DNA of 51,200 nt from an uncultured Pelagibacteraceae bacterium (GTDB taxonomy: Bacteria > Pseudomonadota > Alphaproteobacteria > Pelagibacterales > Pelagibacteraceae), in contig CACEDG010000008.1 of NCBI GenBank assembly GCA_902558225.1, positions 1-51,200 on the forward strand. Reading direction: 5' to 3'. Below are positions 33,966 through 50,167 of this stretch, one piece after another. The notes under the pieces are model-generated. The model worked only from the letters and a program-made list of their open reading frames with translations. It was not told the DNA's origin and made no database searches. How positions within the stretch are numbered: the first letter of the stretch is position 1; each line of letters begins with the position of its first letter. A program made the position numbers and the translations under genes.

Positions 33966-34741
33966 TGATAATTTCTTCATGGAATGTAAATTCTGTGAGG
34001 GCTCGTATAGAAAATATTAAGAGTTATCTTCTTAAATATAAACCAGAAATTCTCATGATGCAGGAAATCAAGACAGAAGATATAAATTTTCCTTTCGACG
34101 ATTTTTCAGCAATGGACTACGAAAGTCATGTATACGGTCAAAAAAGTTACAACGGTGTTGCAATTATCTCTAAGGGAAAACTGAAAAATATCAGAACAGA
34201 CTTGATTAAAGATAAATTAAAACAATCAAGAATTATTTCAGCTGAATTTGAATATAAAAAGAAAAATATTCAATTAATAAATATTTATACTCCAAATGGA
34301 AATCCTGTAGATACGGATAAATATAAATACAAGAAACAATGGTTAGATAGTTTAATCAAACAATTAAAGAGTTTAAGTAAAAAAAATTCAAATATTATTC
34401 TTGCTGGAGATTTTAATATTATTCCTGCTCCAGAGGACGTTTATAATCCTAAAAGCTTTGAAAATGATGCGCTTTTTAGATTAGAAATAAGAAAAAAATT
34501 AAGAGAAATGATTAACCTTGGTTTTAATGATGTTTATAGACATTTTAATGAGACTAAGGAAGGATATACCTTTTGGGACTATATGAGAGGTGCTTGGCAA
34601 AAAAATAATGGGATGCGAATTGATCACTTCTTAGTTTCAAATTCTTTGATTGATCAGGTTAAAGGTATTAATATCAATAAAGATCCAAGAGGTCGCGAAA
34701 AACCATCAGACCATACACCAATTGAAATAACTTTAGCTTAA
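33965..34741 (+). CDS. xthA: Exodeoxyribonuclease III
   Basis: AP endonuclease and 3'-5' exonuclease of base-excision repair. The 258 residues begin MIISSWNVNSVRAR, the normal family start; an in-frame ATG at 33935 lies inside the erpA-like gene and would add ten unrelated residues, so ATG 33965 is chosen. Motifs: LMMQEIKTED (catalytic Glu), YGVAIISK-like YNGVAIISKG, LAGDFNIIPAPEDVYN (Asp/Asn pair) and PSDHTPIEI with the final Asp-His. It converges on the Ldh-family gene with a 9-nt overlap. Confidence 0.96.
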   Translation: MIISSWNVNSVRARIENIKSYLLKYKPEILMMQEIKTEDINFPFDDFSAMDYESHVYGQKSYNGVAIISKGKLKNIRTDLIKDKLKQSRIISAEFEYKKKNIQLINIYTPNGNPVDTDKYKYKKQWLDSLIKQLKSLSKKNSNIILAGDFNIIPAPEDVYNPKSFENDALFRLEIRKKLREMINLGFNDVYRHFNETKEGYTFWDYMRGAWQKNNGMRIDHFLVSNSLIDQVKGININKDPRGREKPSDHTPIEITLA

Positions 34742-35746
34742 AGACCTTATTTTATTTACCAACTCTTTGTTAATATTTCTAGGACCCTTATCTAATCTAT
34801 TTTTATGTCTTCTTTCACCGGGAAGTCTAACACCATCAAAAGATTTCATCTTTTCAAAAAATTCATCTGCATGTTTTTGCCAATTAGTTCCTGATGTTTT
34901 ATCTGGTGAAATAGCTATAATAAATTCTCCTCCACTTGGCGGGCCGCCATCATTGTTATCTTTTGCTGCTGTCTCAAAACTAAAATTATCACCAACTAAA
35001 GCTCCAGCCATTAACTCTACCATCATTGCTATTGCCGAACCTTTATAACCACCAAAAGGAAGTAACACACCTCCATCAGCTATTGCTCCTGGGTCAGTTG
35101 TCTCTTTACCATCTTTAGTTAAACCTGTACCAAGTGGAACTTTGTGCCCTTCTCTTTTTGCAACTTGTACTTCACCCATTGCTATCGAAGCAGTTGCCAT
35201 ATCATAAACGACAGGAGTTTTTCCGGGTCGCGGCCATGCAAATGAAATAGGATTTGTACCAAATAATGGCTTGATCGCTCCAGCAGGCGCTACCGCAGGT
35301 TTGTAGGATGTGCAGGCAAAGGCAACTAAACCTTCTTCAGCCAATTTTTCTGTCTCTGGCCACATCGCTGCCATGTGATGTGAATTGTTAATTGCAAGTA
35401 CAGCAACACCATTTTCTTTTGCAGCTTTAGCTAATTCAGGTAAACCTTTATTTAAAACTACAGGGGCTAAACAATTATTCCCTAGAACTTTTATTACTGA
35501 TGATGAAATCTTTTTTACTTCAGGTTTTCCTTTACCATTAATTTTTCCGCTTTTTAAACCACTCACATATGCAGGTAACCTAAACAAACCATGAGATAAA
35601 GATCCGTCTCTTTCAGCATTTCTAATTAAATCTGACAGAATTGAAGCTGTTTCTTCATCACACCCATTAGCTAGTAAGGTCTTTCTAGCTAAATCAAATA
35701 TTTCATCTAATGTAAGGGGAACTGTACTCATCCCATTATTAGACAT
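34733..35746 (-). CDS. Ldh-family (malate/L-lactate/ureidoglycolate-type) NAD(P)H oxidoreductase
   Basis: Oxidoreductase of the COG2055 family, unrelated to classical lactate dehydrogenases, acting on 2-oxo/2-hydroxy acids or cyclic imino acids such as piperideine-2-carboxylate. The 337 residues carry the catalytic SHGLFRLP (SHGxxR), NNSHHMAAMWPE, GTNPISFAWPRPG, MATASIAMGEV and FGGYKGSAIAMM. The start may be Met1 or Met6 (MSTVPL). It is the last gene of the znuA-COG0523-WD40 run, 23 nt after the small cysteine-motif gene, so it may be co-transcribed under zinc control. The actual substrate is unknown. Confidence 0.88.
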   Translation of the reverse strand: MSNNGMSTVPLTLDEIFDLARKTLLANGCDEETASILSDLIRNAERDGSLSHGLFRLPAYVSGLKSGKINGKGKPEVKKISSSVIKVLGNNCLAPVVLNKGLPELAKAAKENGVAVLAINNSHHMAAMWPETEKLAEEGLVAFACTSYKPAVAPAGAIKPLFGTNPISFAWPRPGKTPVVYDMATASIAMGEVQVAKREGHKVPLGTGLTKDGKETTDPGAIADGGVLLPFGGYKGSAIAMMVELMAGALVGDNFSFETAAKDNNDGGPPSGGEFIIAISPDKTSGTNWQKHADEFFEKMKSFDGVRLPGERRHKNRLDKGPRNINKELVNKIRSLS

Positions 35747-35769
35747 TATTTATAACTAAAGATCAATTT

Positions 35770-36012
35770 TTATTCTAAATCATTAACGTCATTTTCACTT
35801 ATTTCATCTATAGGTTTATGGATTTTCCAGTTTTGGGTAGATCCATCTATTGATCTAGCAGTTACTACTGTTTCTGTCGGAGGACAATCAGGTTCATGAC
35901 AATTTAATTCAGCAATGCTTAAAATTGTACTTTCTGGTATTTCATATTTTTTTATAAAATAATTTTTTAAATCCTGAATTGTTTCTAAATTTGGTTTTTT
36001 TTTATTAAACAT
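35770..36012 (-). CDS. Small conserved CHEPDCPP-motif protein in zinc operon
   Basis: 80 residues without assigned function. The centre reads AELNCHEPDCPPTETVVTA: two cysteines four residues apart with a His next to the first, a possible metal or redox site. It is followed by WKIHKPIDEISENDV. The first half is a predicted helix pair (IQDLKNYFIKKYEIPE). I recall similar short proteins in alphaproteobacteria sometimes labelled nitrate reductase, for which nothing in the sequence speaks. It sits 3 nt after the WD40 gene, downstream of znuA and the COG0523 GTPase, so a role in zinc handling is inferred from context only. Confidence 0.8.
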   Translation of the reverse strand: MFNKKKPNLETIQDLKNYFIKKYEIPESTILSIAELNCHEPDCPPTETVVTARSIDGSTQNWKIHKPIDEISENDVNDLE

Positions 36013-36015
36013 TTT

Positions 36016-37050
36016 TTATTGATCCCAAATTGAAGTCCATAAAGTATTTCCATTCATGTCACCAATAAATATATTTGATTTATCATGAGTCATTGCGATT
36101 GCACTAACTTCAGAACCTGTGAAACTTCTAATTATTATAGTGTTATTTTCATTTTCAATTTGAGATAAAAAAACAGAACCATCACTCAAACCAGCAAAAA
36201 TTGCTTTTTCATCAGGAAATGGTTCGATAAATGTAACTTGTTTATTTCCTATATAAGGAAGACAAATAGGTTTACGTCCCATTGGTCCTTCACCGTCAAA
36301 GGGCCAACATATTGCATCTATCGCTCCTGATGTTGCCAAGTAACTTGTGTCACTAATGAATGCAAAACTTTTAACTTTTGAGCCATATCCTGACATAGCA
36401 AAATCAAGCTTATCTTTTAAACGCCAGCATCGAAGTACATTTTCTTGCATAGACGTTACCAAGTATTTACCATCTGGGCTAAAACTCACTTTGTTGTGAG
36501 AACCTTTCCAATCTAATTTTGTTGATTTCCATTTATTACTGTAATCTTTTTTCCAAATTGTAACACCTCCGTATCTAGATACAGCTAACCGTCTTCCTTT
36601 AGCATCAAATGCTAAACCTCCAATCGTACTATCATGATTTAAAGATTTTGGTTCTTTTTTATTTTTATCCCAATAATAAACTACCTTACCTGAGGAACAG
36701 ACTAGGTTTCCATTATATGCTGCAACGTGGTCTACCCATCGTGAACCAAAGTTTGTAATTTCATTAATTTCTCCATTAAGTGAAATTTTTAAAAAATAAC
36801 CATCATCACCACCAGTTAAAATACTATCACCATCCTTTGACATGCAAAGTATAACACCCTTATGAGCCTTTAAAGTTTTGTGTTTTTCTCCAGAACTGAA
36901 AATTCTTACAGTACCATCACCAAAACCAGCAGCTATATTATTACCAATTGAAACCGCGCAGGTAACTGGAACTCCAATTTCTAACTGAATTCCTCTTTGT
37001 TCAAATTTAGTTTTATCTAGCTCTGGAAATTGATTTAAATCAGTTGTCAT
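36016..37050 (-). CDS. WD40-repeat protein of the zinc operon
   Basis: 344 residues forming a probable seven-bladed beta-propeller. Repeats are visible as units ending near a Trp or Phe: AAGFGDGTVRIFSSG, LTGGDDGYFLKI, LVCSSGKVVYYWDK, LAVSRYGGVTIWKK, LVTSMQENVLRCWRL, LATSGAIDAICWPF and IFAGLSDGSVFL. There is no signal peptide or membrane segment, so it is cytoplasmic. Its ATG overlaps the COG0523 stop by 4 nt. WD40 proteins are usually scaffolds; a partner role for the GTPase or the small Cys protein next door is inferred, not shown. Confidence 0.85.
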   Translation of the reverse strand: MTTDLNQFPELDKTKFEQRGIQLEIGVPVTCAVSIGNNIAAGFGDGTVRIFSSGEKHKTLKAHKGVILCMSKDGDSILTGGDDGYFLKISLNGEINEITNFGSRWVDHVAAYNGNLVCSSGKVVYYWDKNKKEPKSLNHDSTIGGLAFDAKGRRLAVSRYGGVTIWKKDYSNKWKSTKLDWKGSHNKVSFSPDGKYLVTSMQENVLRCWRLKDKLDFAMSGYGSKVKSFAFISDTSYLATSGAIDAICWPFDGEGPMGRKPICLPYIGNKQVTFIEPFPDEKAIFAGLSDGSVFLSQIENENNTIIIRSFTGSEVSAIAMTHDKSNIFIGDMNGNTLWTSIWDQ

Positions 37051-38021
37051 TCTGATTTACAGGCTTCAAATCCCTCTTTTAAATTCATTGTATCTAAGTT
37101 ACGTCCAATAAAAACTAGTCTAGAACTACGTTCTTTATTTTCGGGCCATTTTCCCATAGGAGAAGCATCCATCAACATATGAACGCCTTGAAATACATAT
37201 CGATCATTTTCATCTTTAAAATCAAGTATTCCTTTAGTTCTCATAATATCTTGACCTTTTGTCTGTAAAAGTTTTCCAAACCAGTTTTGAAATTTTTCCA
37301 TATCAAGGGGTGTATTAGATACGAATGATAAACTTTTAACATCATCATCATGTTCATGGTCATGATCTGACTCAAGAAAATCTGGTTCTACCTCTAAAAT
37401 ACGTTTTAAACTAAAAGCATCAAGATTAAGAATTTCCTTAAGTGGTGCTCCACATTTTGTAGTTTTAATAATTTTTGCAAAAGGATTAATTTTACGAATT
37501 CTCTTTGTCACTACCTCTATATTCTCATCTTTCACAAGATCTATTTTATTTAGTAATATTACATCACCAAAAGCAATTTGTTCCTCAGCTTCGTGATGAT
37601 CCTCAATTTGTGAGCTTAAATGAACTGCATCTGCAACTGTAACAATTGCATCTAGCTTTGTTTTATTTGCTACATCTTGATCTACAAAGAAGGTTTGAGC
37701 CACAGGAGCTGGATCTGCTAAACCAGTTGTTTCAACTATAATTGCATCAAGTTTATCAGCTCGCTTCATTAACCCACTAAGTATTCTAATTAGGTCACCT
37801 CTGACTGTGCAGCATATACAGCCATTGTTCATTTCAAAAACTTCCTCGTCAGCATCCACTACAAGGTCATTATCAATACCTTGTTCACCAAATTCATTTA
37901 CAATAACGGCGTACTTCTTGCCGTGCTGTTCTGTAAGAATTCTATTAAGAAGTGTAGTTTTTCCAGCACCAAGAAAACCTGTTAATACAGTGACCGGAAC
38001 CTGTCTATCGGTTTCTTCCAT
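37047..38021 (-). CDS. COG0523-family GTPase, putative zinc metallochaperone
   Basis: G3E-type GTPase of the CobW/YjiA/ZNG1 group. The 324 residues show Walker A GFLGAGKTTLLNRIL (about 14-28), the metal-binding CxCC motif in NNGCICCTVRGDL (about 66-78), ETTGLADPAP and NKIDLV (the G4 motif). A His/Asp stretch, DHDHEHDDD near residue 220, is likely to bind zinc, and a CobW C-terminal domain follows (VFQGVHMLMDASP, RLVFIGRNLD). Position 8 nt after znuA and under the same Zur-box promoter argues for zinc delivery to client proteins under zinc limitation, not cobalamin synthesis. Confidence 0.9.
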   Translation of the reverse strand: MEETDRQVPVTVLTGFLGAGKTTLLNRILTEQHGKKYAVIVNEFGEQGIDNDLVVDADEEVFEMNNGCICCTVRGDLIRILSGLMKRADKLDAIIVETTGLADPAPVAQTFFVDQDVANKTKLDAIVTVADAVHLSSQIEDHHEAEEQIAFGDVILLNKIDLVKDENIEVVTKRIRKINPFAKIIKTTKCGAPLKEILNLDAFSLKRILEVEPDFLESDHDHEHDDDVKSLSFVSNTPLDMEKFQNWFGKLLQTKGQDIMRTKGILDFKDENDRYVFQGVHMLMDASPMGKWPENKERSSRLVFIGRNLDTMNLKEGFEACKSE

Positions 38022-38029
38022 TAATTAAA

Positions 38030-39085
38030 TTAACATCCTTTAAAAGATTTTGACATGTTGCCAATTAAATCAAAATATAAATCTTTACCAGGGTTAAGAG
38101 TAGCTCCCAATGGATCAATGACCCCTGTTGCAACATTGGTATCTTTTGCTACAGCTTTGATAATATCAGGATTAAATTGAGGCTCTGAGAAAATACAACT
38201 TACTTTATCATGCTCAATTACTTCTCTAATTTCATCTAATTGTTCAGCACCAGGCATTACGTCTGTATTAACTGTAAATGCACCTAAAATGTTAATTCCG
38301 AATCTTTTTTCAAAGTATTGATATGCATCATGAAAAACTATTGATTTAAAATCTTTATTTAATTCCGATTTTACTTTTTTAGTAAGTTTATCTAAATCTT
38401 TATGGGCCTTTTTTAAATTTTCTTTATATTTAGCCTCATTTTTTGAGTCATTCTCAATTAAATGTTCTGCCATTTCACTTAAAATTACTTTTGCATTCAT
38501 TGGATCTAACCAAATGTGAGGATCATGTTCACCATGTGCGTGGCCTTCATGTCCATGATCATCGTGACCATCTTTTTTATGATCATCATCATGTCCATGT
38601 TCGTCATGACCATGTTCTTTCTCTTTTTTGTCATGATCGTGATCATCATGATCGTCCTCTTTCTTTGCATGATCATCGTGATCGTCTTCTTTATGACCAT
38701 GATCGTCATGACCTTCAAAAATATTTCTTTCTCTAAACTTTAGTTTAGTTATCCCTTTAATTTCCATTAATTCAATTTTTTCAGCTTTTTTTGCAATTGA
38801 TTTTAATGGTTTCTCTAAAAAACTTTCTATGTCTTCACCTACCCAAAATATGATATCCGCATTTTGTATCATTTTTGCGTGAGATGGCTTTAGTGCAAAT
38901 CCATGTGGTGAAGCATAACCATCAACTATCAAATCAGGTTTACCAACGCCATCCATTAAATAGCTTGCAAGTGAATGAATTGGTTTTATTGATGCTACTA
39001 CCTTAATTTCAGCATTAGCAGGTGTAAAAATTGTTAAGAGTGATAAAAGTGGTAATAATATTGGTAGTTTCTTAATGTATGTCAT
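38030..39085 (-). CDS. znuA: Zinc ABC transporter, periplasmic binding protein ZnuA
   Basis: Captures Zn2+ in the periplasm for ZnuBC. Start chosen at 39085 (MTYIKKLPILL...): it gives a clean signal peptide cut after ANA; the longer open frame would run into the divergent operators. The 351-residue protein has the cluster A-I fold with metal histidines in ASPHGFALKPSHAKM, FHDAYQYF and a C-terminal Asp/Glu region. A very long His/Asp/Glu-rich loop of about 65 residues (about 123-188, some 20 His) precedes HDPHIWLDP. Two Zur-type palindromes lie just upstream. A COG0523 GTPase follows after 8 nt. Confidence 0.95.
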   Translation of the reverse strand: MTYIKKLPILLPLLSLLTIFTPANAEIKVVASIKPIHSLASYLMDGVGKPDLIVDGYASPHGFALKPSHAKMIQNADIIFWVGEDIESFLEKPLKSIAKKAEKIELMEIKGITKLKFRERNIFEGHDDHGHKEDDHDDHAKKEDDHDDHDHDKKEKEHGHDEHGHDDDHKKDGHDDHGHEGHAHGEHDPHIWLDPMNAKVILSEMAEHLIENDSKNEAKYKENLKKAHKDLDKLTKKVKSELNKDFKSIVFHDAYQYFEKRFGINILGAFTVNTDVMPGAEQLDEIREVIEHDKVSCIFSEPQFNPDIIKAVAKDTNVATGVIDPLGATLNPGKDLYFDLIGNMSKSFKGC

Positions 39086-39102
39086 ATGTTGTATATTTGA
39101 AT

Positions 39103-39117
39103 TGTTATAATATAACA
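39103..39117. promoter_or_regulatory. Zur operator 1 (perfect 15-bp palindrome)
   Basis: TGTTATA-A-TATAACA is a perfect 7-1-7 inverted repeat, matching the form of Zur boxes known in alphaproteobacteria. It overlaps TATAAT on the plus strand (39106-39111) and a TATATT/TATTAT-like -10 on the minus strand, so a bound repressor could block both znuA and znuCB-zur. The zur gene itself is the fourth gene away in the divergent operon group. Confidence 0.85.
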
Positions 39118-39120
39118 CTA

Positions 39121-39135
39121 TGTAATAATATAACA
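39121..39135. promoter_or_regulatory. Zur operator 2 (near-perfect 15-bp palindrome)
   Basis: TGTAATA-A-TATAACA differs from operator 1 at one base in the left arm. Its centre (39128) is 18 bp from that of operator 1 (39110), nearly two helical turns, so dimers could bind side by side. It ends 20 bp before the chosen znuC start. Confidence 0.8.
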
Positions 39136-39155
39136 TATTTATGTCAAGGAATAAT

Positions 39156-39902
39156 ATGAGCACAAATCAGAATGTACTAGTTAAATTAAATGAGGCTGGC
39201 TTTAGTTTAGACAACAAATGGCTCGTAAAAGGAGTATCACTACAAGTTGAAAAAGGAAAAATTGTTACTCTTATTGGTCCAAATGGATCAGGAAAAAGCA
39301 CAACAGCTAAAATTGCTTTAGGTATTTATAAAAAAATTGATGGCACTGTTGAAAAATACACAAATAAGGTTGGTTATGTTCCACAAAAAATTTCAATTGA
39401 TTGGACATTACCACTAAGAGTAAATGATTTCATGGTGTTAACAGAAAATCTTAATAAAGAAACAATAGATGAAGCTTTGTCATTAACTGGTGTTATTCAT
39501 CTTAAAGATAAAAATTTAGGAGACTTATCTGGTGGTGAATTTCAAAGAGTATTACTTGCAAGAGCTATTTCAAAAAAACCTGAGTTATTGGTATTAGATG
39601 AGCCAGTACAAGGAGTTGATTACACTGGAGAAATAGCTTTATACAAACTTATTAAAAAAATTACAGATGAATTAAATTGTGGAATCTTATTGATATCACA
39701 TGATTTACATACTGTAATGAGTGCAACAGACCATGTTGTTTGTTTAAACGGTCATGTATGTTGTTCAGGATCGCCGATGGATGTTGCAAAAAATAACGAA
39801 TACAAAGCTTTATTTGGTGAACAAGCTTCTGAAATACTATCAAGATATGAACATAGGCATGACCATATTCATACTGATGAAGGTGAAATAAAAAAAAATT
39901 AA
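39156..39902 (+). CDS. znuC: Zinc ABC transporter, ATP-binding protein ZnuC
   Basis: ATPase of the ZnuABC importer. Start chosen at ATG 39156, because AAGGA (39146-39150) sits five bases upstream; an in-frame ATG at 39141 has no such site and lies only 5 nt from operator 2. The 248 residues have Walker A GPNGSGKSTTAK, signature LSGGEFQRVLLARA, Walker B LLVLDEP and the switch His in LLISHDLH. The C-terminal tail is His-rich (RYEHRHDHIHTDEG), which is common in ZnuC. The stop is directly followed by the znuB ATG. Confidence 0.95.
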   Translation: MSTNQNVLVKLNEAGFSLDNKWLVKGVSLQVEKGKIVTLIGPNGSGKSTTAKIALGIYKKIDGTVEKYTNKVGYVPQKISIDWTLPLRVNDFMVLTENLNKETIDEALSLTGVIHLKDKNLGDLSGGEFQRVLLARAISKKPELLVLDEPVQGVDYTGEIALYKLIKKITDELNCGILLISHDLHTVMSATDHVVCLNGHVCCSGSPMDVAKNNEYKALFGEQASEILSRYEHRHDHIHTDEGEIKKN

Positions 39903-40706
39903 ATGTTTGATGATTTCTTTATAAGAGCATTGGTAGCTGGAATTGGAGTTGCTTTTGTAACAGGGCCTCTTGGTTGTTTTGTAATTTGGAGGAGGTTATC
40001 TTATTTTGGTGATACTTTAGCTCATTCTGCATTATTAGGGGTAACATTAGCCTTTACAATGGAATTCAATATTGCATTATCAGTTTTCATAATTTCCTCT
40101 TTAATAGCTTTAACTTTAATACAACTTCAAAAAAAAACTAATTTACCAGGTGATGCCTTGCTGGGTCTTCTAGCTCACTCATCTTTGGCTGTTGGACTTG
40201 TGGTAATAGGTTTTTTAACATTTATTAGATTTGATATAATGGGATTGTTATTTGGAGATATATTGGCTGTTACAGTTGATGATCTTTTAATAATATGGAT
40301 AGGAGGAGCGTTAATTCTTCTTATTCTAAAATTAATATGGAAACCTTTATTTGCATCAACAGTAAATTATGAATTAGCTGAAGCAGAAGGCTTAAATCCT
40401 GAGAGAGCTAAAGCTATATTTACAATCTTAATGGCAGCTATAATTGCAATATCAATCAAAATGGTTGGATTATTATTAATAACAGGAATGTTAATTATAC
40501 CGGCAGCAATGGCTAGAAATATTTCAACTAGTCCACAAAGTATGGTGATCTATTCAATTATAGGCGGATTGTTGGCTGTTATTTTAGGATTATTTTCATC
40601 ATTAGAGTTTAATACATCATCAGGACCTTCAATTATAAGTGCAGCCTTATTATTGTTCATTCTTTCTTTATTTAGAATTAAACAATCTATTAAATTGAAA
40701 AACTAG
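39903..40706 (+). CDS. znuB: Zinc ABC transporter, permease ZnuB
   Basis: Membrane channel of the zinc importer. 267 residues with about eight helices, starting with FFIRALVAGIGVAFVTGPLGCFVIWRRLSYFGDTLAHSALLG, the standard ZnuB/MntB opening. EAEGLNPERAK and LLITGMLIIPAAMARN mark the conserved cytoplasmic coupling region and helix. No gap separates it from znuC; zur follows after 15 nt. Confidence 0.95.
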   Translation: MFDDFFIRALVAGIGVAFVTGPLGCFVIWRRLSYFGDTLAHSALLGVTLAFTMEFNIALSVFIISSLIALTLIQLQKKTNLPGDALLGLLAHSSLAVGLVVIGFLTFIRFDIMGLLFGDILAVTVDDLLIIWIGGALILLILKLIWKPLFASTVNYELAEAEGLNPERAKAIFTILMAAIIAISIKMVGLLLITGMLIIPAAMARNISTSPQSMVIYSIIGGLLAVILGLFSSLEFNTSSGPSIISAALLLFILSLFRIKQSIKLKN

Positions 40707-40721
40707 TGAGGAATCAGTAAA

Positions 40722-41129
40722 GTGAGTAAAATGCATAAAGAACATAATCTAACTAAAAATCAGCAAATCATTTTTGATATAATTGATAGATCACCTGAGC
40801 CACTTAAAGCATATTCAATACTATTTAATGTTCAAAAAAAAGGTATCAAGGCTCCATTACAAGTTTATCGAGCACTAGATAAGTTAGTTGAAATAGGAAA
40901 AATACATAAAATTGAAAGTAGAAATGCTTTTATTGCATGTCAAAATTCAAGTTGTCAGGTGTCAAAAGCTACTGCTTTTTCAATATGCGAAAGTTGCGAA
41001 AAAGTAACAGAAATTAATAATTCCAGCCTTTCAAAATATCTATCAAATTTTAAAGACAAAGCTGGTATGAAATATAGTAAATATAATCTTGAATTTTTTG
41101 GTTTATGCAAAAAATGTATAACCAAATAA
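40722..41129 (+). CDS. zur: Fur-family zinc-responsive repressor Zur
   Basis: Represses zinc-uptake genes when zinc is sufficient. The 135 residues have an N-terminal winged helix (PLKAYSILFNVQKKGIKAPLQVYRALDKLVEIGKIHKIES, the Zur-type recognition region) and a C-terminal metal/dimer domain with CESC and CKKC, the structural zinc pairs of Zur, plus an extra CQNSSCQ pair. GTG 40722 is the likely start, with GAGGA at 40708-40712; ATG 40731 is possible. Membership of the znuCB operon and the two palindromes at 39103-39135 make Zur, not Fur, the call. Confidence 0.93.
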   Translation: MSKMHKEHNLTKNQQIIFDIIDRSPEPLKAYSILFNVQKKGIKAPLQVYRALDKLVEIGKIHKIESRNAFIACQNSSCQVSKATAFSICESCEKVTEINNSSLSKYLSNFKDKAGMKYSKYNLEFFGLCKKCITK

Positions 41130-41541: not shown

Positions 41542-41763
41542 ATGTTTATAAAAAAATATCTAAAGTGGATTAGTACATTCTTAGTTTTAGTAGGAATACT
41601 TCTTACAAATTTAAATATATATCCTTTAAATATATATTTTCATGGATTAGGAGTTGTTGGATGGACTATCGCTGGATTTATTAGCAAAGATAAAGCGATA
41701 TTAACTAACTTTGGATTACAAATTCCATTGTTTGTAATTGGTATTTATAAAGTTATTTTTTAA
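41542..41763 (+). CDS. Small membrane protein heading the arsC-aquaporin operon
   Basis: 73 residues with two to three hydrophobic helices (WISTFLVLVGILLTNLNIYP, GLGVVGWTIAGFISKD, FGLQIPLFVIGIYKVIF). No family recognised with confidence. An AGGAG site stands a few bases before the ATG, and the stop is directly followed by the arsC ATG, so it is surely co-translated. Context suggests an arsenate- or phosphate-stress role, but only by association. Confidence 0.75.
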   Translation: MFIKKYLKWISTFLVLVGILLTNLNIYPLNIYFHGLGVVGWTIAGFISKDKAILTNFGLQIPLFVIGIYKVIF

Positions 41764-42195
41764 ATGAAGAATGTATTATTTGTATGCACAGGTAATTCAG
41801 CAAGAAGTATTATTGCTGAAAGTATAATAAATAACGAGTATGACGATATGTATAAAGGTTTTAGTGCTGGGAGTAATCCAACAGGAAAAATTAATGAAGA
41901 TGTGAAGAATTATTTATTATCAAAACATTATGATCTTTCAAATTATAGATCTAAAAATTTTAATGAGTTTGTTAATAATCATATTAAAATGGATTACGTG
42001 ATTACAGTTTGTAATAATGCCAATAACGAAGTCTGCCCTATTTGGCCAAATAAAGATCAAATAATTCATTGGGATATAGAGGATCCTGTTAAATTACTTA
42101 ATGAAACAAATGACTTAAATAAAAAAGATGAAATAATTGAAAAAGTTTTTAACCATATCAATAAAAATATAAAGGAACTACTTAATGAAAAATAA
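41764..42195 (+). CDS. arsC: Arsenate reductase, low-molecular-weight phosphatase type
   Basis: Reduces arsenate to arsenite using a thiol cascade. The P-loop CTGNSARS (Cys8, Arg14) at the N-terminus is the CX5R motif of the LMW tyrosine phosphatase fold, and VCNNANNEVCPIWP gives the further redox cysteines expected of thioredoxin-linked ArsC; HWDIEDP holds the general-acid Asp region. 143 residues. A plain LMW protein phosphatase is the alternative, but the second cysteine pair and the following aquaporin favour ArsC. It overlaps the aquaporin gene by 11 nt. Confidence 0.87.
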   Translation: MKNVLFVCTGNSARSIIAESIINNEYDDMYKGFSAGSNPTGKINEDVKNYLLSKHYDLSNYRSKNFNEFVNNHIKMDYVITVCNNANNEVCPIWPNKDQIIHWDIEDPVKLLNETNDLNKKDEIIEKVFNHINKNIKELLNEK

Positions 42196-42844
42196 AAGTC
42201 GTTATTTTCTTGCTGAACTATTAGGCAGTTGTTTTTTGGTAATGATTATTGTTGGTTCAGGTTTAATGGCTGAAAACTTAACCAATGACGTTGCTGTGAT
42301 GTTAATAGCGAATACTATAGCAACAGGAGCGGGTTTATTTGTGCTTATTACAGTATTTGCTGATGTATCAGGAGCTCACTTTAATCCATTTGTAAGTATC
42401 GCAATGGCAATAACAGGCAAATTAAAAAGGAAACTATTACCCTACTATATCATTGCTCAATTGGTTGGTTGCTTGATTGGTGTTGGTTTAGCTAATTTCT
42501 TTTTTGAACATGAAATTTATGAATTATCTACTAAATCAAGAGATGGAATTTATATACTAACATCTGAAGTGATAGCAACATTAGGGCTTATAATAATAAT
42601 TTTTGGTTCAATGAAGTCAGGTAAAATTACTGTTGCAGCTAGTGTTGGGCTTTATATTACTGCAGGTTATTGGTTTACTTCTTCAACTTCTTTTGCAAAT
42701 CCAGCTGTTGCAATTGCTAGAACATTTACAGAGTCTTTTACTGGTATTAGTTATTTAAATACTCCTTATTATATTTTAGCTGAGCTTGTTGGAATGTTAA
42801 TTGCTGTACTTATTGTTAAAAAGTTATTTTCAGAAAAAAATTGA
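42185..42844 (+). CDS. MIP-family aquaporin/aquaglyceroporin, NPF variant
   Basis: Six-helix channel of 219 residues. The two pore half-helices carry SGAHFNPFVS (Asn-Pro-Phe at 67-69 instead of Asn-Pro-Ala) and FANPAVAIARTFT with a normal NPA and the filter Arg. A channel next to arsC recalls the AqpS-type arrangement of Sinorhizobium, in which arsenite leaves the cell through the aquaglyceroporin; that role is inferred here. Water or glycerol transport is the alternative. It overlaps arsC by 11 nt and the NUDIX gene by 4 nt. Confidence 0.87.
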   Translation: MKNKSRYFLAELLGSCFLVMIIVGSGLMAENLTNDVAVMLIANTIATGAGLFVLITVFADVSGAHFNPFVSIAMAITGKLKRKLLPYYIIAQLVGCLIGVGLANFFFEHEIYELSTKSRDGIYILTSEVIATLGLIIIIFGSMKSGKITVAASVGLYITAGYWFTSSTSFANPAVAIARTFTESFTGISYLNTPYYILAELVGMLIAVLIVKKLFSEKN

Positions 42845-43842: not shown

Positions 43843-45354
43843 TTATCTTGAATTATTTGAGTAAATTACTCTTGGTTCTAAAAATAATTCTCTGGCAAGA
43901 GCTTTAAATCTTTTAGTAACTTGTTTTGAGATTATTTCTTGATGTTGTGATGGAATTTTTAAAAATACAGCATTACCTCTTTTATACAATTTAAACTCTT
44001 CAAGAAATATCGTAGATATCGAGGTCAATGATTGTGAAAATCTCAATGCTGCTCCAACTTGTTTGCTTGAAAAAATTTCATTATTATTTAAAAAAGTTAG
44101 ATACTCCATCTTTGGATTATACTTGATACTACAGTACCGCCAATAACATGACAAAGCTAATTGTATTCTTTCTTTATGAGTCAATCTAAGTAAAGGAGTA
44201 TTTATTGTTTCTTGAAATACCAATTCAGCTTTTTGAAATGCTCCTAATCCCCAATCCATATGACTTAATACACATGCCAGATATAATAATTTCTTATTAA
44301 AATGTTCATTGCCTTCAAAAACTGGCTGAATAAAATCATAATATTTTTTATAGTTCGATCCTAGATCACCTCTTTTTTTTGCAATATGCTCAAGTGCTTT
44401 ATGAAAAATTTCTGATTCTTTTACATCTTTAAAATAGTCAATTGATAAAGAACCTTCACGCAAACCGCTTATAGAACAAATTATATTTCTTGGATTTGTA
44501 ACTCTCATAATTTCATCAAGTATAATGCAACTATAAGGTAAATACGCTGTTCTAGATTTTGAAATATACTCAACTGTTTTAAGTTTAGATTTATTAAAAG
44601 ATGAAATTTTTTCAACAAACTTAGATAAAACATTGTTATCAATACTATATTGATGAATTATATGTACCGGATGATTATTTTGAAAAAGATGTAATTTAAA
44701 TAATGCTCGCCAGGTACCTCCAACTAAATATAGATTATTAAATTTCTTTTTTGAAAGCCATTTTTCTTCTCTTAATAATTTTTTGATATATTTTGCTAAA
44801 TTTCTTTTTTTAACTATAGGATTATTTAATAATCTTAAAACTCCAATAGGTAATGAGGTTTTATTAGTAACTATATTATTTTCAACTCGAGCTAATTCTA
44901 AACTTCCACCTCCAAGATCAGCAACTAATCCATTGACATTTTCAAAGCCTATTTTTACTCCCTCAGCTGAGCATTCAGCTTCTTCTTCACCAGATAATAT
45001 ATTAATCTTAGTTTTAAAAAGTTTTTCAACTTCATTAATAAATGGTTTTGTATCAGTCGCTTCTCTTAAAACTGCTGTTGCAATGATTTTAAGATTTGTG
45101 ATTTTTGAAACATTTAAAATTTCAGAGAATCTTTTTAAAACTTTTAAAGCATATTCGGTACCAGATCTGTGAAGTTTTTTGGATTTATCTAAATTTTTTC
45201 CAAGTTCACAAACTGCTTTTTCATTAAAAAAAGGCACACGAGAAGAACTGAAATCTTCATAAATTAGCATTCTTATAGAGTTTGATCCAATGTCTATTAT
45301 AGCTAATTTTGCCTGATTTAATTTTAAACTATTTTTACTTTTAATTACTTCCAC
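43843..45354 (-). CDS. ppx: Exopolyphosphatase / Ppx-GppA family
   Basis: Degrades polyphosphate from its ends to orthophosphate; the family also includes pppGpp phosphatases. The 503 residues have the ASKHA phosphate-binding motifs AIIDIGSNSIRMLIYE and VADLGGGSLELARV, SLPIGVLRLL, and a C-terminal HD-like helical domain. It overlaps the ppk 3' end by 14 nt, so synthesis and degradation of polyphosphate are co-expressed; this pairing favours Ppx over GppA. Confidence 0.93.
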   Translation of the reverse strand: MEVIKSKNSLKLNQAKLAIIDIGSNSIRMLIYEDFSSSRVPFFNEKAVCELGKNLDKSKKLHRSGTEYALKVLKRFSEILNVSKITNLKIIATAVLREATDTKPFINEVEKLFKTKINILSGEEEAECSAEGVKIGFENVNGLVADLGGGSLELARVENNIVTNKTSLPIGVLRLLNNPIVKKRNLAKYIKKLLREEKWLSKKKFNNLYLVGGTWRALFKLHLFQNNHPVHIIHQYSIDNNVLSKFVEKISSFNKSKLKTVEYISKSRTAYLPYSCIILDEIMRVTNPRNIICSISGLREGSLSIDYFKDVKESEIFHKALEHIAKKRGDLGSNYKKYYDFIQPVFEGNEHFNKKLLYLACVLSHMDWGLGAFQKAELVFQETINTPLLRLTHKERIQLALSCYWRYCSIKYNPKMEYLTFLNNNEIFSSKQVGAALRFSQSLTSISTIFLEEFKLYKRGNAVFLKIPSQHQEIISKQVTKRFKALARELFLEPRVIYSNNSR

Positions 45355-47497
45355 TTTTAATCAATCTTAAGTGCAGTTGTTTAGGCTGCATTCTTAGTTT
45401 AGCTTTACCTCTTCCAGATAAGCTCGGATTATTCATAAAATATTCATGAGCTGAAAAGGAATCGCTCTTACTATATTTAATTTTTTTATAATTACCATCA
45501 GCTTTAAGTTCCCAGCTATGATTAGTATCAAGATAATTTGCCAACATTATTTGATCTAAGATCTGTTCATGAACAGTCTCATTTTCAATTGGGACTAGAA
45601 GTTCTACCCTTCGATTTAAATTTCTCGGCATTAAATCAGCTGACGAAATATATACTTTTGCATTTCTATTAGGCATTTTTTTTGTACCATTACTAAAGCA
45701 GTAAATTCTAGAATGCTCTAAAAATCTTCCTATGATACTTTTTACAAATATGTTTTCTGATCTATCTTTTACTCCTGGTCTTAAACAACAAACACCCCTT
45801 ACAAATAAATGAATTTTTACACCAGCATTCGAAGCTTCATAAAATTTATCAATAATTTCTGGATCTACTAAAGAGTTCATTTTTGCCCAAATAGCTGCAA
45901 ATTTTCCATTTTTAGAATTTTTAATTTCAGCATCAATATTTTCATTTAAGGTTTGCCTCATATTTACTGGCGAAATAGAAATTTTATTTAAATTTTTTGG
46001 TTTTGCGTATCCTGTTACATAATTGAAAAACTTTTCAACATCTGATGCCATTTTCTTATCACAACTAAATAAAGACAAATCAGTATAAATTTTAGCATTT
46101 ACTGGATGATAATTGCCAGTTCCTAAATGAAAATAAGTTTGTATTTTACCCTGTTCTCTTCTTAAAACTAATGATGATTTTGCATGAGTTTTATATTTAG
46201 CAAAACCATAAACAATTTGAACACCTACTTTTTCTAAACTTCTTGATAGTTGAATATTAGCTTCCTCATCAAATCTAGCTTTAATTTCAATTAAAGCGGT
46301 AACTGTTTTTCCGTTTTCTGCAGCTGTTATTAAAGCTTTAACAATAGGTGAGTCTAGAGTTGTTCTATATAGAGTTTGTTTTATAGCTATAACTTTTTTA
46401 TCATTTGCTGCTTGGTTTAAAAATTCAATTACTGAGTCAAATGTTTCAAAAGGATGATGAACAACTAAATCTTTCTTTTTAATAGTTTCAAAAAAATTAT
46501 CATTATATTCTTTTAATCTTTCAACTTCTCTAGGTGTAAAATGTTTAAATCTTAATTTTGGATTTTTTACTTTACATATTTGATCTATATCTTGAATTCC
46601 AACAAGGCCAGCAACATCATAAATATAGTCAGGATTTATATCTAATTTATTAGTTATAAATCTTATCAATTCGTTATCACTATTTTCAAGAACCTCTAAA
46701 CGAACAATATCACCCGTTCTACGTCTTTTTAAAGCCAATTCAAAAGATCTAACCAAATCTTCTGCTTCCTCTTGAATCTCTACATCGCTGTCTCTTATTA
46801 CTCTAAAAATCATTTTCTTTTCTAAATCATGATCTGGAAAAATTTCATTAGCAAAAAAACTTATTACATCATCTAGAATCACAAATTTCTTATGATTTTT
46901 TGAAGACTCAATTTCAATAAATCTAGATAATGCTTTTGGTATTACTATTATTGAGTTTAAAATCCTTTTTTTATTTTTTTTTCTTAACTTCATTACAATT
47001 GCTCTTCCTTGATTGATTATAAATGGAAATGGATGTGCAGGATCAATTGCTGATGGTGTTAATAAAGGGTAAATCTCTTCTTTAAATATTTCTAAAAGTT
47101 TTTTTTTATCCTTAGTATTTAAATTAACTGGTTTAACTAAATTGATATTATTTTTTTTTAATTCCATAATCAGTTGAATAAAAATTTTGTTCTGTTTTTT
47201 TAATAGATTCTTAGTTTCAAGCACTACCTCATCCATTTGCTCTTCAGGTGTCAAACCATCAGAGCTTAGTGAGTCAACTTCTTGTTTTATTTGACTATAT
47301 AACCCAGCTACACGGACCATAAAAAATTCATCTAGATTAGACCCAGCAATTGATAAAAACTTTACTCTTTCATAAAGAGGATTTTCGATATTTTGCGCCT
47401 CTAAAAGTACTCTATCGTTGAATTTTAACCAAGAAAGCTCTCTATTTATATATTTAGATTTCAACTCTTCTTTATGTTGTTTTTTTAATGCAGTCAT
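45341..47497 (-). CDS. ppk1: Polyphosphate kinase 1
   Basis: Reversibly makes polyphosphate from ATP. The 718 residues show the PPK1 start YINRELSWLKFNDRVLLEA, SNLDEFFMVRVAGL, the phospholipase-D-like catalytic half with the autophosphorylated His in YKTHAKSSLVLRRE, YFHLGTGNYHPVNAK, and FLEHSRIYCFSNG with the second His. Complete. The divergent histidine-phosphatase gene starts only 13 bp upstream, so the promoter must overlap that gene or lie inside it. Confidence 0.96.
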   Translation of the reverse strand: MTALKKQHKEELKSKYINRELSWLKFNDRVLLEAQNIENPLYERVKFLSIAGSNLDEFFMVRVAGLYSQIKQEVDSLSSDGLTPEEQMDEVVLETKNLLKKQNKIFIQLIMELKKNNINLVKPVNLNTKDKKKLLEIFKEEIYPLLTPSAIDPAHPFPFIINQGRAIVMKLRKKNKKRILNSIIVIPKALSRFIEIESSKNHKKFVILDDVISFFANEIFPDHDLEKKMIFRVIRDSDVEIQEEAEDLVRSFELALKRRRTGDIVRLEVLENSDNELIRFITNKLDINPDYIYDVAGLVGIQDIDQICKVKNPKLRFKHFTPREVERLKEYNDNFFETIKKKDLVVHHPFETFDSVIEFLNQAANDKKVIAIKQTLYRTTLDSPIVKALITAAENGKTVTALIEIKARFDEEANIQLSRSLEKVGVQIVYGFAKYKTHAKSSLVLRREQGKIQTYFHLGTGNYHPVNAKIYTDLSLFSCDKKMASDVEKFFNYVTGYAKPKNLNKISISPVNMRQTLNENIDAEIKNSKNGKFAAIWAKMNSLVDPEIIDKFYEASNAGVKIHLFVRGVCCLRPGVKDRSENIFVKSIIGRFLEHSRIYCFSNGTKKMPNRNAKVYISSADLMPRNLNRRVELLVPIENETVHEQILDQIMLANYLDTNHSWELKADGNYKKIKYSKSDSFSAHEYFMNNPSLSGRGKAKLRMQPKQLHLRLIKSGSN

Positions 47498-47510
47498 ATA
47501 TTTAGATTTT

Positions 47511-48035
47511 ATGTATCAATTATACGTCATGAGACACGCAAAATCTAGTTGGGATGATTTAAGTATTAATGATTTTGATAGACCACTTACTAAAAGAGGC
47601 AAGAAAAATGCAAAAATGATTTGTGAATTTTTTGTTAAAAAAAAATTTGAATTTGATTATGCATTAATTTCATCATCAAAAAGAACAAAAAAAACTTTTC
47701 AAATTTTATCCAAGAAAATTAATAAGCCAAAAAAAGTTAATTTTTCAAAAGATTTATATTTAGTTGATGAGAATGCAATTGTAAAAAAAATTAAAGAAAT
47801 ATCCAGTGAATATAAATCAATTTTGATTATAAACCATGAACCATCAGTGAAAAATTTAGTACGAAATCTTACAAAAAATCATAATACGAATAATTTTAAA
47901 CTAATGAATTATAAATTCCCAACAGCAGCATTTGCAAAAATTGAGTTTGATATTAAATCCTGGAATGAAGTTGAGAAAAAGGGAGTATTAAAAAAATTTA
48001 TAAGACCCAAAGATCTTCAAGATTCTAAAGAATAA
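47511..48035 (+). CDS. sixA: SixA-type histidine phosphatase
   Basis: Histidine-phosphatase-superfamily protein of 174 residues. The start YQLYVMRHAKSSWDD holds the RHxKSSW motif of the SixA branch (RHG-type), then FDRPLTKRGKKNA, ISSSKRTKKTF, and INHEPSV with the second catalytic His. ATG 47511 is chosen: the frame is open further upstream into ppk, but those residues are unlike the family. SixA dephosphorylates His-phosphotransfer domains in E. coli; the target here is unknown. It converges on phoB with a 19-nt overlap. Confidence 0.88.
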   Translation: MYQLYVMRHAKSSWDDLSINDFDRPLTKRGKKNAKMICEFFVKKKFEFDYALISSSKRTKKTFQILSKKINKPKKVNFSKDLYLVDENAIVKKIKEISSEYKSILIINHEPSVKNLVRNLTKNHNTNNFKLMNYKFPTAAFAKIEFDIKSWNEVEKKGVLKKFIRPKDLQDSKE

Positions 48036-48700
48036 CCAGCTGATCTTACTGTTCTAATTAAAGGTTTTGTATTTTGTATGTTAATTGCTTGTCTTAATCT
48101 TCTAATATGAACATCAACTGTTCTAGACTCAACATATATATTTTCTCCCCAAACATTGTTTAAGAGTTGTTCTCTTGAATAAACTCTTTTTGGATTTTTG
48201 ATAAAAAAATCTAAGAGTTTAAATTCAGTTGGACCCAAAGTAATTTCTTTATCTTTTCTATAAACTCTTTTTGTAATCCGATCTATTTTTAAATCAGTAA
48301 ATTCTACAATGTCTGATGATGATTGAGGTTTAGATCTTCTCAATAAAGATTTAATTCTAGCATTCAATTCTTTTTGACTAAAAGGTTTAGTTACATAATC
48401 ATCTGCACCTGTATCAAATGCTTTTAATTTGTCTTCTTCCTCCCCTTTTGCAGTTAACATAATGACAGGAATATCATTAAACTTATTATCTTTTTTTAAG
48501 TTTTTACAAATTTCAACACCAGATAATTCTGGTAACATCCAATCCATTAATATTAAATCTGGCTGTTTTAATTTTATTTGTTTAAGAGCATCTTCTCCAT
48601 TTTCTGAATGACTGACTTTATAACCTTCTTTTTCAAGATTGTACTTTAACAAACTAACAATTGATGCTTCATCTTCAGCTATGAAAACATGAGCTGACAT
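48017..48700 (-). CDS. phoB: Phosphate regulon response regulator PhoB
   Basis: OmpR-type response regulator that activates phosphate-starvation genes. The 227 residues have a receiver domain with acidic pocket (FIAEDEASI), phospho-acceptor Asp in LILMDWMLPELSG, LTAKGEE and TKPFSQKEL, and a C-terminal winged helix with GPTEFKLLDFF, SREQLLNNVW and VDVHIRRLRQAI. Its place behind pstA-pstB-phoU identifies it as PhoB. The cognate phoR is not in this window on this side. Confidence 0.94.
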   Translation of the reverse strand: MSAHVFIAEDEASIVSLLKYNLEKEGYKVSHSENGEDALKQIKLKQPDLILMDWMLPELSGVEICKNLKKDNKFNDIPVIMLTAKGEEEDKLKAFDTGADDYVTKPFSQKELNARIKSLLRRSKPQSSSDIVEFTDLKIDRITKRVYRKDKEITLGPTEFKLLDFFIKNPKRVYSREQLLNNVWGENIYVESRTVDVHIRRLRQAINIQNTKPLIRTVRSAGYSLES

Positions 48701-48703
48701 AAA

Positions 48704-49411
48704 TCATTTTTCTCCGGTTACAATTGGCTCTGTTCCCTTGGGTCTATCACCTTCTAAATATTCGCCTTTAACTAAATAATAAACTTGTTCTGCAACATTT
48801 GTAGTATGATCACCAATACGCTCTATGTTTTTAGTTACAAACAATAAATGGGTTCCATCTTCTAAATTTTTTTCATTTTCTTTAAGATATTTTATAACTT
48901 CTTGCATACAAAGATTTGTTAGATCATCTATTTGCTCATCACCTTCCCAAACATTTACTGCCATTGGCGCAGATCTTTCTAGATAAGCATCTAATGTTGA
49001 TTTTAATTGTTTTTGAACATTGGTAGATACTCTATTCAATGAGTCTACCAAGTTCTTTGGAAGATTTTCGTTAAGCAAAAGTGTTCTCTTGGATATATTT
49101 TTTGCTAAATCACCTATTCTTTCTAAATCTGAAGACATTTTCAAAGCCGTTACTGTCTCTCTTAAATCAATTGCCATAGGTTGTCTTAAAGCAATTAAAT
49201 TCACAACTTGCTGTTCAATTAAAGTCTCATATTTATCTATTTTTTCATCTTCTTGAATAACAGCTTCTGCAATATTATTATCTCTTGTTGTAATGGCTTG
49301 AATTGCTTTACCTAAAGAATCTTCACATGCACTTCCCATTTTAATTATATTAGCATTAAGATTTTTTAGTTCTTCTTCGTAAGATTTGACTGTATGTGGT
49401 GCTTCAGACAT
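48704..49411 (-). CDS. phoU: Phosphate signalling protein PhoU
   Basis: Negative regulator linking the Pst transporter to PhoR/PhoB. The 235 residues form two repeated three-helix units, each with the E(D)xxxD metal-binding signature seen as DLERIGDLAKNI and NIERIGDHTTNVAE. It shares one base (TAATG) with the pstB stop and lies 3 nt before phoB, so translation is coupled. Confidence 0.96.
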   Translation of the reverse strand: MSEAPHTVKSYEEELKNLNANIIKMGSACEDSLGKAIQAITTRDNNIAEAVIQEDEKIDKYETLIEQQVVNLIALRQPMAIDLRETVTALKMSSDLERIGDLAKNISKRTLLLNENLPKNLVDSLNRVSTNVQKQLKSTLDAYLERSAPMAVNVWEGDEQIDDLTNLCMQEVIKYLKENEKNLEDGTHLLFVTKNIERIGDHTTNVAEQVYYLVKGEYLEGDRPKGTEPIVTGEK

Positions 49412-50166
49412 TATCCAAACCTCCCTGTTATATAATCTTGCGTTTTTTTATTATCTGGATTCTTGAATATTTTATCAGTAGATCCATGTTCAATCAATTG
49501 ACCTAAATGAAAAAAACCTGTATTTTGAGAAACACGTGCTGCTTGAGCCATAGAATGAGTTACAATTATTATTGTGTGCTCTTTTTTTAACTCATCAATC
49601 AATTCTTCAATTTGTGCTGTTGCTATTGGATCTAATGCTGAACAAGGTTCATCCATTAATATAACTTCAGGTCTTACAGAAATCGCTCTAGCAATACAAA
49701 GTCTTTGCTGTTGTCCTCCAGATAATCCAGTTCCAGGTTCATGCAACCTATCTTTTACCTCTTCCCATAGTGCAGCCTTTTTCAAACTAGTTTCAACAAT
49801 TTCATCCATTTCTTGTTTTGATTGAGCCATACCATGAATTGTTGGACCGTAAGACACATTTTCATATAAAGTTTTTGGGAAAGGATTGGGTTTTTGAAAA
49901 ACCATACCAATTTTTTCTCTTAGTCTTACGACATCACAACTTTTATCATTGATATTAAAATCATTAATTAAAATTTCTCCTTTAACACTACAGATATCAA
50001 TTACATCATTCATTCTATTAAGACATCTTAGGAAAGTTGATTTACCACAACCAGATGGACCAATTAATGCCGTTACTTGATTTTCCTCAATATCTAAACT
50101 TATATTAAAGAGCGCTTGTTTTTTTCCATAAAAAACATCAACATCTTTTGCTTTAATCTTTATCAT
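49411..50166 (-). CDS. pstB: Phosphate ABC transporter, ATP-binding protein PstB
   Basis: ATPase of the high-affinity phosphate importer. Start chosen at 50166 (MIKIKAKDV): a GGAG site stands a few bases upstream and it begins just after the pstA stop; an in-frame ATG at 50187 would overlap pstA by 20 nt. The 251 residues have Walker [33 protein letters not shown] typical of PstB, signature [14 protein letters not shown] and Walker [14 protein letters not shown]. Confidence 0.97.
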
Positions 50167-50167
50167 T

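Follow-up and report, generated by a model that had tools for sequence, protein, structure and literature searches.

The closest described relatives of the locus studied here belong to subfamily 5 of the COG0523 GTPases, whose prokaryotic members are clustered with genes for WD40-repeat proteins, with znuABC and with creatinase genes, several of them behind Zur sites, and to which most eukaryotic COG0523 proteins were assigned (Haas 2009, PMC2770081; this and the other articles cited were available to us as partial text). The link between GTPase, WD40 protein and ZnuABC is already known from that work. The eukaryotic ZNG1 is a zinc transferase for MetAP1, and COG0523 proteins serve specific clients (PMC10642216). 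Depletion or chelation of zinc raises the expression of the COG0523 gene pden1338 and of the hypothetical genes pden1339 and pden1340 8-13-fold in Paracoccus denitrificans (PMC5387054). For SAR11 a conserved znu synteny with a Fur-family gene has been described, the metal specificity of ZnuA being flagged there as untested (Hogle 2016, PMC4771312). Here we analyse the first 51,200 nt of contig CACEDG010000008.1 from an uncultured Pelagibacteraceae bacterium ("the window" always means this whole stretch), in which a COG0523 GTPase, a WD40 protein and a small protein, CHEP, are encoded behind znuA. We propose, with a probability of roughly 0.55, that these three form one cassette which allocates zinc inside the cell and is switched on together with ZnuABC, CHEP being a partner of the GTPase and the WD40 protein a scaffold.

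The window shows the neighbourhood described for subfamily 5, a COG0523 GTPase with WD40 and znuABC genes and Zur sites upstream, the Zur site by palindrome only. The difference lies in the small partner, the exchange of the cassette between strains and the presence of CHEP beside other GTPase clades, which are seen here and are unmentioned in the text of PMC2770081 available to us. A preliminary description of the stretch had called the module uncharacterised; this fits CHEP, which is the new part as far as our searches show, but not the cluster of COG0523, WD40 and znuABC genes (PMC2770081). The window GTPase has in common with ZNG1, which is used in zinc shortage (PMC10642216), that it is a COG0523 protein with a CxCC motif; it differs in that just a few residues precede its G domain. 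ZigA (NF038288) is likewise a zinc-linked COG0523 protein, and elsewhere genes that pass its cut-off are followed by CHEP, but the window GTPase falls far below the equivalog cut-off (196.3 vs 600). AztD is a propeller protein of zinc islands, often with CobW-family neighbours, but is mainly periplasmic or extracellular (PMC6689063), whereas the window WD40 protein, with the N-terminus MTTDLNQFPELDK, has no signal peptide by eye. The SAR11 locus of Hogle shares the znu synteny and the Fur-family gene, while the words COG0523 and cobW are absent from the text of PMC4771312. A CHEP-like small protein is unmentioned in the available text of PMC2770081, PMC6689063, PMC4771312, PMC5387054, PMC7029138, PMC10642216, PMC12183173, PMC3223725 and PMC8469502, and literature searches, with subscription papers and supplements outside their scope, gave no mention of it.

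In the window znuA, the GTPase, WD40 and CHEP genes and an Ldh_2-family gene follow each other on the minus strand with recomputed gaps of 8, -4, 3 and 23 nt (Table 1), exactly as first described, and znuC, znuB and zur lie divergently on the opposite strand. The start of znuA was set at ATG 39085, the upstream GTG not being used. ZnuA scores above its NCBI equivalog cut-off; ZnuB, ZnuC and Zur fall below theirs and are the best-scoring families, so their names rest on rank and context. The GTPase carries a Walker A motif (GFLGAGKTT), a GCxCC motif (GCICC) and the linker HDHEHDDD, and both its cobW and its CobW_C domain pass the Pfam cut-offs. It stays below the cut-off of the YjiA-type model (NF008578, 237.7 vs 361), yet YjiA of E. 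coli is its nearest solved structure by sequence. The assembly from which the window comes (871 kb, 74% complete) has one GTPase match at E ≤ 0.001, and contigs named Pelagibacteraceae in the genome_contigs collection have the same gene order with a CHEP identity of up to 100%, from which we infer a SAR11 host.

The collection gave 246 confirmed relatives of CHEP. In the closest 80 of them the order GTPase-WD40-CHEP is found without exception, with ZnuA also in view in 74; these are near relatives, mostly SAR11 single cells, and therefore not independent. The draws from the class Alphaproteobacteria and from the phylum together comprise 33 CHEP loci outside the own genome (L-numbers label loci of relatives, G-numbers genomes), five of which (L135-L138, L172) lack the Cys pair. 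The 28 Cys-bearing loci include nine with GTPase-WD40-CHEP, nine with GTPase-CHEP, L026 counted among them, five with WD40-CHEP and one (L171) in which a Znu island has a COG0523 GTPase about 5 kb away. The same trio occurs in distant Alphaproteobacteria, with a GTPase identity as low as 58% (L025). The small family is thus not found mostly away from COG0523, a possibility that the preliminary description had raised against itself: a COG0523 gene is beside or near CHEP in 19 of 28 loci, and WD40 only in five more. In genome G148 we also saw a decaying second cassette (L026, 1-1600), with an in-frame TAG in the GTPase gene, no WD40 gene and a shortened CHEP core.

Plasmids give a similar picture. 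Two protein searches yielded 19 distinct CHEP places (eight viewed with 6 kb, eleven with 3.5 kb per side), and CHEP directly follows a COG0523 gene in 12 of them (once with WD40 between) and a WD40 gene in one, so that COG0523 or WD40 adjoins it in 13 of 19. Among these 12, azt genes are in view in seven, and seven show a 4-nt overlap with the GTPase gene. Plasmid records label CHEP "hypothetical protein" or "nitrate reductase" or leave the gene unannotated; nothing in this analysis supports the nitrate reductase label. The CHEPs with a CGLPGCPP core in L242, L249, L250, L241 and L245 have no GTPase or WD40 gene within 3.5 kb, and in the annotated L241 and L245 the gene lies between alcohol dehydrogenase and amidohydrolase genes, with an RraA-family gene nearby.

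A maximum likelihood tree of 68 COG0523 rows, in which long branches make deep joins unsure, places CHEP-linked GTPases in three groups: the WD40-linked group (47 rows including the window, support 89/91, not starred), the ZigA group (6 rows, 100/100) and one more of 7 rows (100/99), found for the most part on plasmids within azt islands. The window GTPase groups with other WD40-linked GTPases in this tree, which holds no subfamily 5 or eukaryotic references. All three ZigA-group GTPases submitted to the ZigA model, those before CHEP in L134, L157 and L164, pass it with 611-617 vs 600; L162 was not among the GTPases scored. Measured by this cut-off, the window GTPase lies outside the ZigA type that the preliminary description mentions as background, though GTPases before CHEP elsewhere lie inside it. 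Two tandem GTPases share one CHEP in L170 and L180 and were both labelled as linked, and the second GTPase of L161 was missed by the distance rule. Searching the class for the GTPase gave 50 positive genomes out of 289; at the 29 loci fetched from these besides the own one, viewed with 1.5 kb per side only, WD40 follows in 22 and CHEP in five. WD40 therefore looks like the older partner of the WD40-linked clade, and CHEP like a later and more widely shared one.

Within SAR11 the three genes move by recombination as one unit. Among 143 Pelagibacteraceae genomes (at least 90% complete, own genome added) 112 have ZnuA; 17 have the GTPase, and every one of these is ZnuA-positive (hypergeometric P 0.012). 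In 38 loci ranked by CHEP similarity (L034-L071), a ranking which favours high cassette identity, the median identity to the window at third codon positions is 87% for the GTPase, 89% for WD40 and 91% for CHEP, while the thirteen neighbours measured have medians of 55-65% (ZnuA 58, Ldh2 58). All three cassette genes reach at least 81% in 35 of the 38. The pattern is mosaic: individual loci also match the window closely in some far neighbours (ppx and NUDIX 84-98% in L034, L036 and L037; ZnuA 84% in L045). Two observations are independent of the ranking. In L030, found via WD40, ppx and NUDIX are 99-100% identical to the window at third positions and the cassette 56-58%, so silent sites in these genes can vary freely and there is a diverged allele. 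In genome G1028, from the ZnuA and GTPase searches, the GTPase is 100% identical (rounded) and ZnuA 83%. Comparing L035 with the window in blocks of 100 bases gives 98-100% DNA identity from about 38,000 to about 35,500, falling to 70-93% towards znuA and to 86-95% towards Ldh2; the stretch exchanged in this pair starts where znuA ends and reaches into the first part of Ldh2. Such block recombination is evidence for a shared function beyond gene order alone. Compared with the window, L042 and L065 carry the segment from CHEP through zur in the opposite orientation, with a break near 35,740; Ldh2 borders the inverted segment on one side and, in L042, the gene at window position 41542 borders it on the other.

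Between the divergent znuA and znuC lie an exact palindrome (GTTATAATATAAC, 39104-39116) and a copy with one mismatch (39122-39134). The whole window has six matches with at most one mismatch vs 4.26 expected, and 24 of 100 shuffles equal that, so the count is within chance and it is the position that supports the pair. The exact palindrome of this region is kept by 16 of the 18 relatives measured; the other 62 of the 80 loci were dropped by a filter that needed ZnuA and ZnuC matches within 400 bases. By position and conservation the Zur-type palindromes noticed at the operon head are thus present, and with znuABC and zur they support the zinc-limitation island that had been described. The own genome has two other exact 14-mer matches, one where pdxJ meets acpS and one within a mur gene (names from translations); the reversed control pattern also gives two, and we rejected the extra matches as further Zur targets since they look like chance.

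Similar boxes head other CHEP operons. A palindrome with 0-1 mismatch lies 41-137 bp before the P-loop codons of the GTPase in L072, L131, L157, L163, L164, L166 and L179, where 0-4% of dinucleotide shuffles are as good, and such a palindrome also occurs at the first tandem GTPase of L170 and at the CHEP-linked GTPase of L174 (279 bp off). Two-mismatch palindromes precede the GTPase in L134 (3.5% of shuffles as good), L162 (6%) and L177 (2%). The one upstream of the L074 GTPase is at chance level (44%), and none better than chance was found for L178, for the CHEP-linked GTPase of L161 or for the second tandem GTPases of L170 and L180. The scan had too little upstream DNA in L073 and L020, and its P-loop pattern did not pick up L176. 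GTPases behind znuA (window, L019, L022, L025, L156, L165, L173) or behind zur (L021, L132) have no box directly upstream, as expected for an inner gene of an operon; the region before zur has an exact palindrome in L132 and no palindrome was found there in L021. Zur would then bind at these boxes and control the cassette. The tie of WD40 and CHEP to the GTPase, as first suggested, is borne out by the 80 closest loci, the tight operons, the boxes elsewhere and the block recombination.

CHEP has the core motif E-x2-C-x2-P-x-C-P-x2-E-T, and in 11 aligned members M1, E35, C38, P41, C43, P44, E47 and T48 are invariant. The window protein has no match in Pfam or NCBIfam; the 11 members give only two single chance-level matches in Pfam (best E 0.11), and the best PDB sequence match has E 0.066. 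The AlphaFold2 (AF2) model (predicted local distance difference test score, pLDDT, 82.8) predicts a helix, three strands and a short helix, with both Cys in the loop that joins strands 1 and 2. This model has no match to PDB structures below E 0.001. A second structure comparison gave a best Z of 4.8, with about 10 rows of ribosome-hibernation factors at Z 3.4-4.4; we do not claim such a fold, since Z values this low are ordinary and CHEP is acidic by eye. The NCBIfam model NF047431 of a COG0523-like GTPase is named for recruiting a ribosome-hibernation factor. The C-terminal tail contains at least two His in 39 of the 80 genome_contigs copies, one in 10 and none in 31 (tallied by hand). By profile search, 15 of the 387 Alphaproteobacteria genomes sampled have CHEP (14 of 377 when restricted to those of good quality), as do 18 of 397 genomes of the phylum-wide draw, all 18 Alphaproteobacteria, the out-of-class share of that draw not being shown; the protein is also present on one cyanobacterial plasmid (Calothrix). 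In viral_contigs 27 pattern matches for CHEP and four for the GTPase contained no relatives, so phage carriage of the cassette was not found for either protein.

The WD40 protein is predicted to be a propeller (AF2 model, pLDDT 85.9). At E ≤ 0.001 this model has 1935 matches in PDB, of which the 50 rows listed are WD40-type or designed propellers or complexes containing them, and the best matches include designed eight-bladed and ODA16 propellers (TM-score by query 0.74-0.79). No AztD model was among its NCBIfam matches, the presence of such a model in the library being unchecked. A zinc site on this protein was considered and rejected: there is no conserved Cys, and the conserved H63, H185, D82 and D83, a numbering unanchored to the window's first residue and possibly shifted by one or more, look like structural WD40 positions.

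We suggest the following mechanism. When zinc falls, Zur would release its boxes, and ZnuABC and the cassette would be made. By analogy with the COG0523 family, the GTPase would load zinc on GCICC and release it in a GTP-gated manner. The E-x2-C-x4-C-x3-E loop of CHEP may accept zinc from the GTPase or deliver zinc to it, or may dock the GTPase to a client, and the His tail, present in many SAR11 copies, may assist the loop. The propeller would serve as a scaffold gathering GTPase, CHEP and clients into a physical complex. What the sequences show directly is the layout of the operon, the Zur-like boxes, the linkage of CHEP to COG0523 and the exchange in one block; the roles of CHEP as a relay and of WD40 as a scaffold are the less supported parts of this proposal. 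In the preliminary description the two proteins were partners or clients in zinc delivery or client repair; for client repair no evidence was found here.

Several observations weigh against this proposal. WD40-linked GTPases have CHEP in only five of the 29 class loci, four of the 28 Cys-bearing loci (L023, L133, L167, L169) have neither GTPase nor WD40 adjoining, and the same holds for six of the 19 plasmid places. Of these six, the five with a CGLPGCPP core appear to form a single rhizobial group of paralogues, and the remaining one is the Calothrix copy, near metal-transport genes. L135-L138, from two alphaproteobacterial families, are CHEP-like proteins in which KPGFP replaces the Cys core, at most about 1.5 kb from a COG0523 gene that belongs to another clade; the Cys loop is thus dispensable in some places. 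The window CHEP has no His tail, like the 31 of 80 relatives without one. The WD40 protein has no conserved Cys, which fits a scaffold, no box directly heads the window GTPase (4 mismatches at best), and the silent-site comparison carries the bias of its ranking.

A wider reading, which we judge less likely than not, takes CHEP as a general co-chaperone of zinc COG0523 GTPases, a metal-binding adaptor serving at least three clades and the missing partner for receipt or transfer of zinc. That CHEP instead regulates the GTPase, by nucleotide exchange, GTPase activation or as a lid on CxCC, with structural or redox cysteines and no metal carriage, would suit the Cys-less relatives near a COG0523 gene (L135-L138), and the three unlike clades that CHEP follows would fit a general partner of the G domain. 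However, all 11 aligned members keep both Cys, E35 and E47, and 49 of 80 SAR11-type copies have tail His, which makes us regard a pure regulator as unlikely. WD40 and CHEP could also be the clients that receive zinc from the GTPase, as the tight operons and the specific clients of COG0523 proteins (ZNG1-MetAP1, PMC10642216) would allow. The WD40 protein, however, lacks conserved Cys, structure comparisons give CHEP no recognised enzymatic fold, and it would be odd for a client to stand after GTPases without WD40 and after WD40 without a GTPase; we think this role quite improbable. The COG0523 family includes cobalt members, so cobalt or manganese might be the scarce metal that the cassette handles as part of this Zur-controlled island. 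The caveat on SAR11 ZnuA specificity (Hogle 2016, PMC4771312) points the same way, but ZnuA passes the zinc ZnuA cut-off, the boxes are Zur-like, and ZigA-type partners and azt zinc-transporter genes stand beside CHEP elsewhere, so we give a metal other than zinc little credence. Finally, the cassette genes could be chance neighbours or hitchhikers behind znuA that share no function, neighbourhoods of close SAR11 genomes being common by descent. This is already disfavoured and has, in our opinion, hardly any probability, as the trio also occurs in distant Alphaproteobacteria (L025), Zur-like boxes head other CHEP operons and the recombined block leaves out znuA and most of Ldh2.

Table 1. Features of the zinc island in the window.
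Feature	Position	Strand	Basis and remarks
Ldh_2-family oxidoreductase	34733-35746	-	PF02615; PDB 1wtj 5e-83; neighbour, outside the cassette
CHEP protein, 80 aa, CHEPDCPP	35770-36012	-	Undescribed small COG0523-associated family; no Pfam/NCBIfam family
WD40 beta-propeller protein, 344 aa	36016-37050	-	PF00400 63.2 bits vs cut-off 27; scaffold candidate
COG0523/CobW G3E GTPase, 324 aa	37047-38021	-	PF02492 203.4 vs 20.7; PF07683 89.9 vs 22 bits
ZnuA zinc-binding protein, His-rich loop, operon head	38030-39085	-	NF007091 287.9 vs cut-off 268
Pair of Zur-like palindromes, divergent znuA/znuC promoter region	39104-39134		Pattern match, position, conservation
ZnuC ATPase	39141-39902 (ATG 39156 = alternative start)	+	NF007090 best, 266.4 vs cut-off 306
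ZnuB permease	39903-40706	+	PF00950 223 bits, above cut-off; NF007089 231.4 vs 284
Zur, Fur-family regulator	40722-41129	+	PF01475 31.8 vs cut-off 23.1; NF008646 best, 67.2 vs 167

The solved structure closest to the Ldh_2 protein is a delta1-piperideine-2-carboxylate reductase, and the protein is probably an imino-acid reductase of this type. It had been described as a member of the unit, which we reject. The best 20 ZnuA loci from the 112 ZnuA-positive genomes include the window; in 16 of the 19 others Ldh2 is directly beside znuA without the cassette, two have the cassette and one has neither. Among the cassette-bearing loci, L027 and L042 have Ldh2 on the far side of zur, and no Ldh2 was found in L030. 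From the preliminary description as a whole, the zinc island and the tie of WD40 and CHEP to the GTPase stand; the Ldh_2 member does not, and client repair found no evidence here.

At the edges of the zinc islands of L027, L031, L032 and L033 there are DsbA-like genes (by eye) beginning MKIEYYFSVLSPF, and the islands of L027 and L033 additionally have a peroxiredoxin-like gene (MKIS.GDKLEEITLP, by eye). Adjoining the zinc island of the window, at 41764-42844, a gene for an ArsC-like small phosphatase or arsenate reductase and an aquaporin (MIP) gene share 11 nt; the names come from reading the translations, and we take the pair to be arsC-aquaporin. A phosphate block, mainly on the minus strand, follows at 43843-51172, with ppx-, ppk-, phoB-, phoU-, pstB- and pstA-like genes (translations read).

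The arrangement is real and widely conserved, half of it published and half, as far as our searches show, new, namely CHEP across three GTPase clades and the block exchange in SAR11. The new half is moderately surprising and can be tested. How COG0523 proteins find their clients in bacteria is an open question, for which CHEP, occurring with three clades and in many cases with Zur-like boxes, offers a direct handle. SAR11 are among the most abundant bacteria of the ocean, and in them the cassette is swapped as a block while most strains keep the zinc importer, which suggests that the allocation of zinc, beyond its uptake, is under selection in these organisms.

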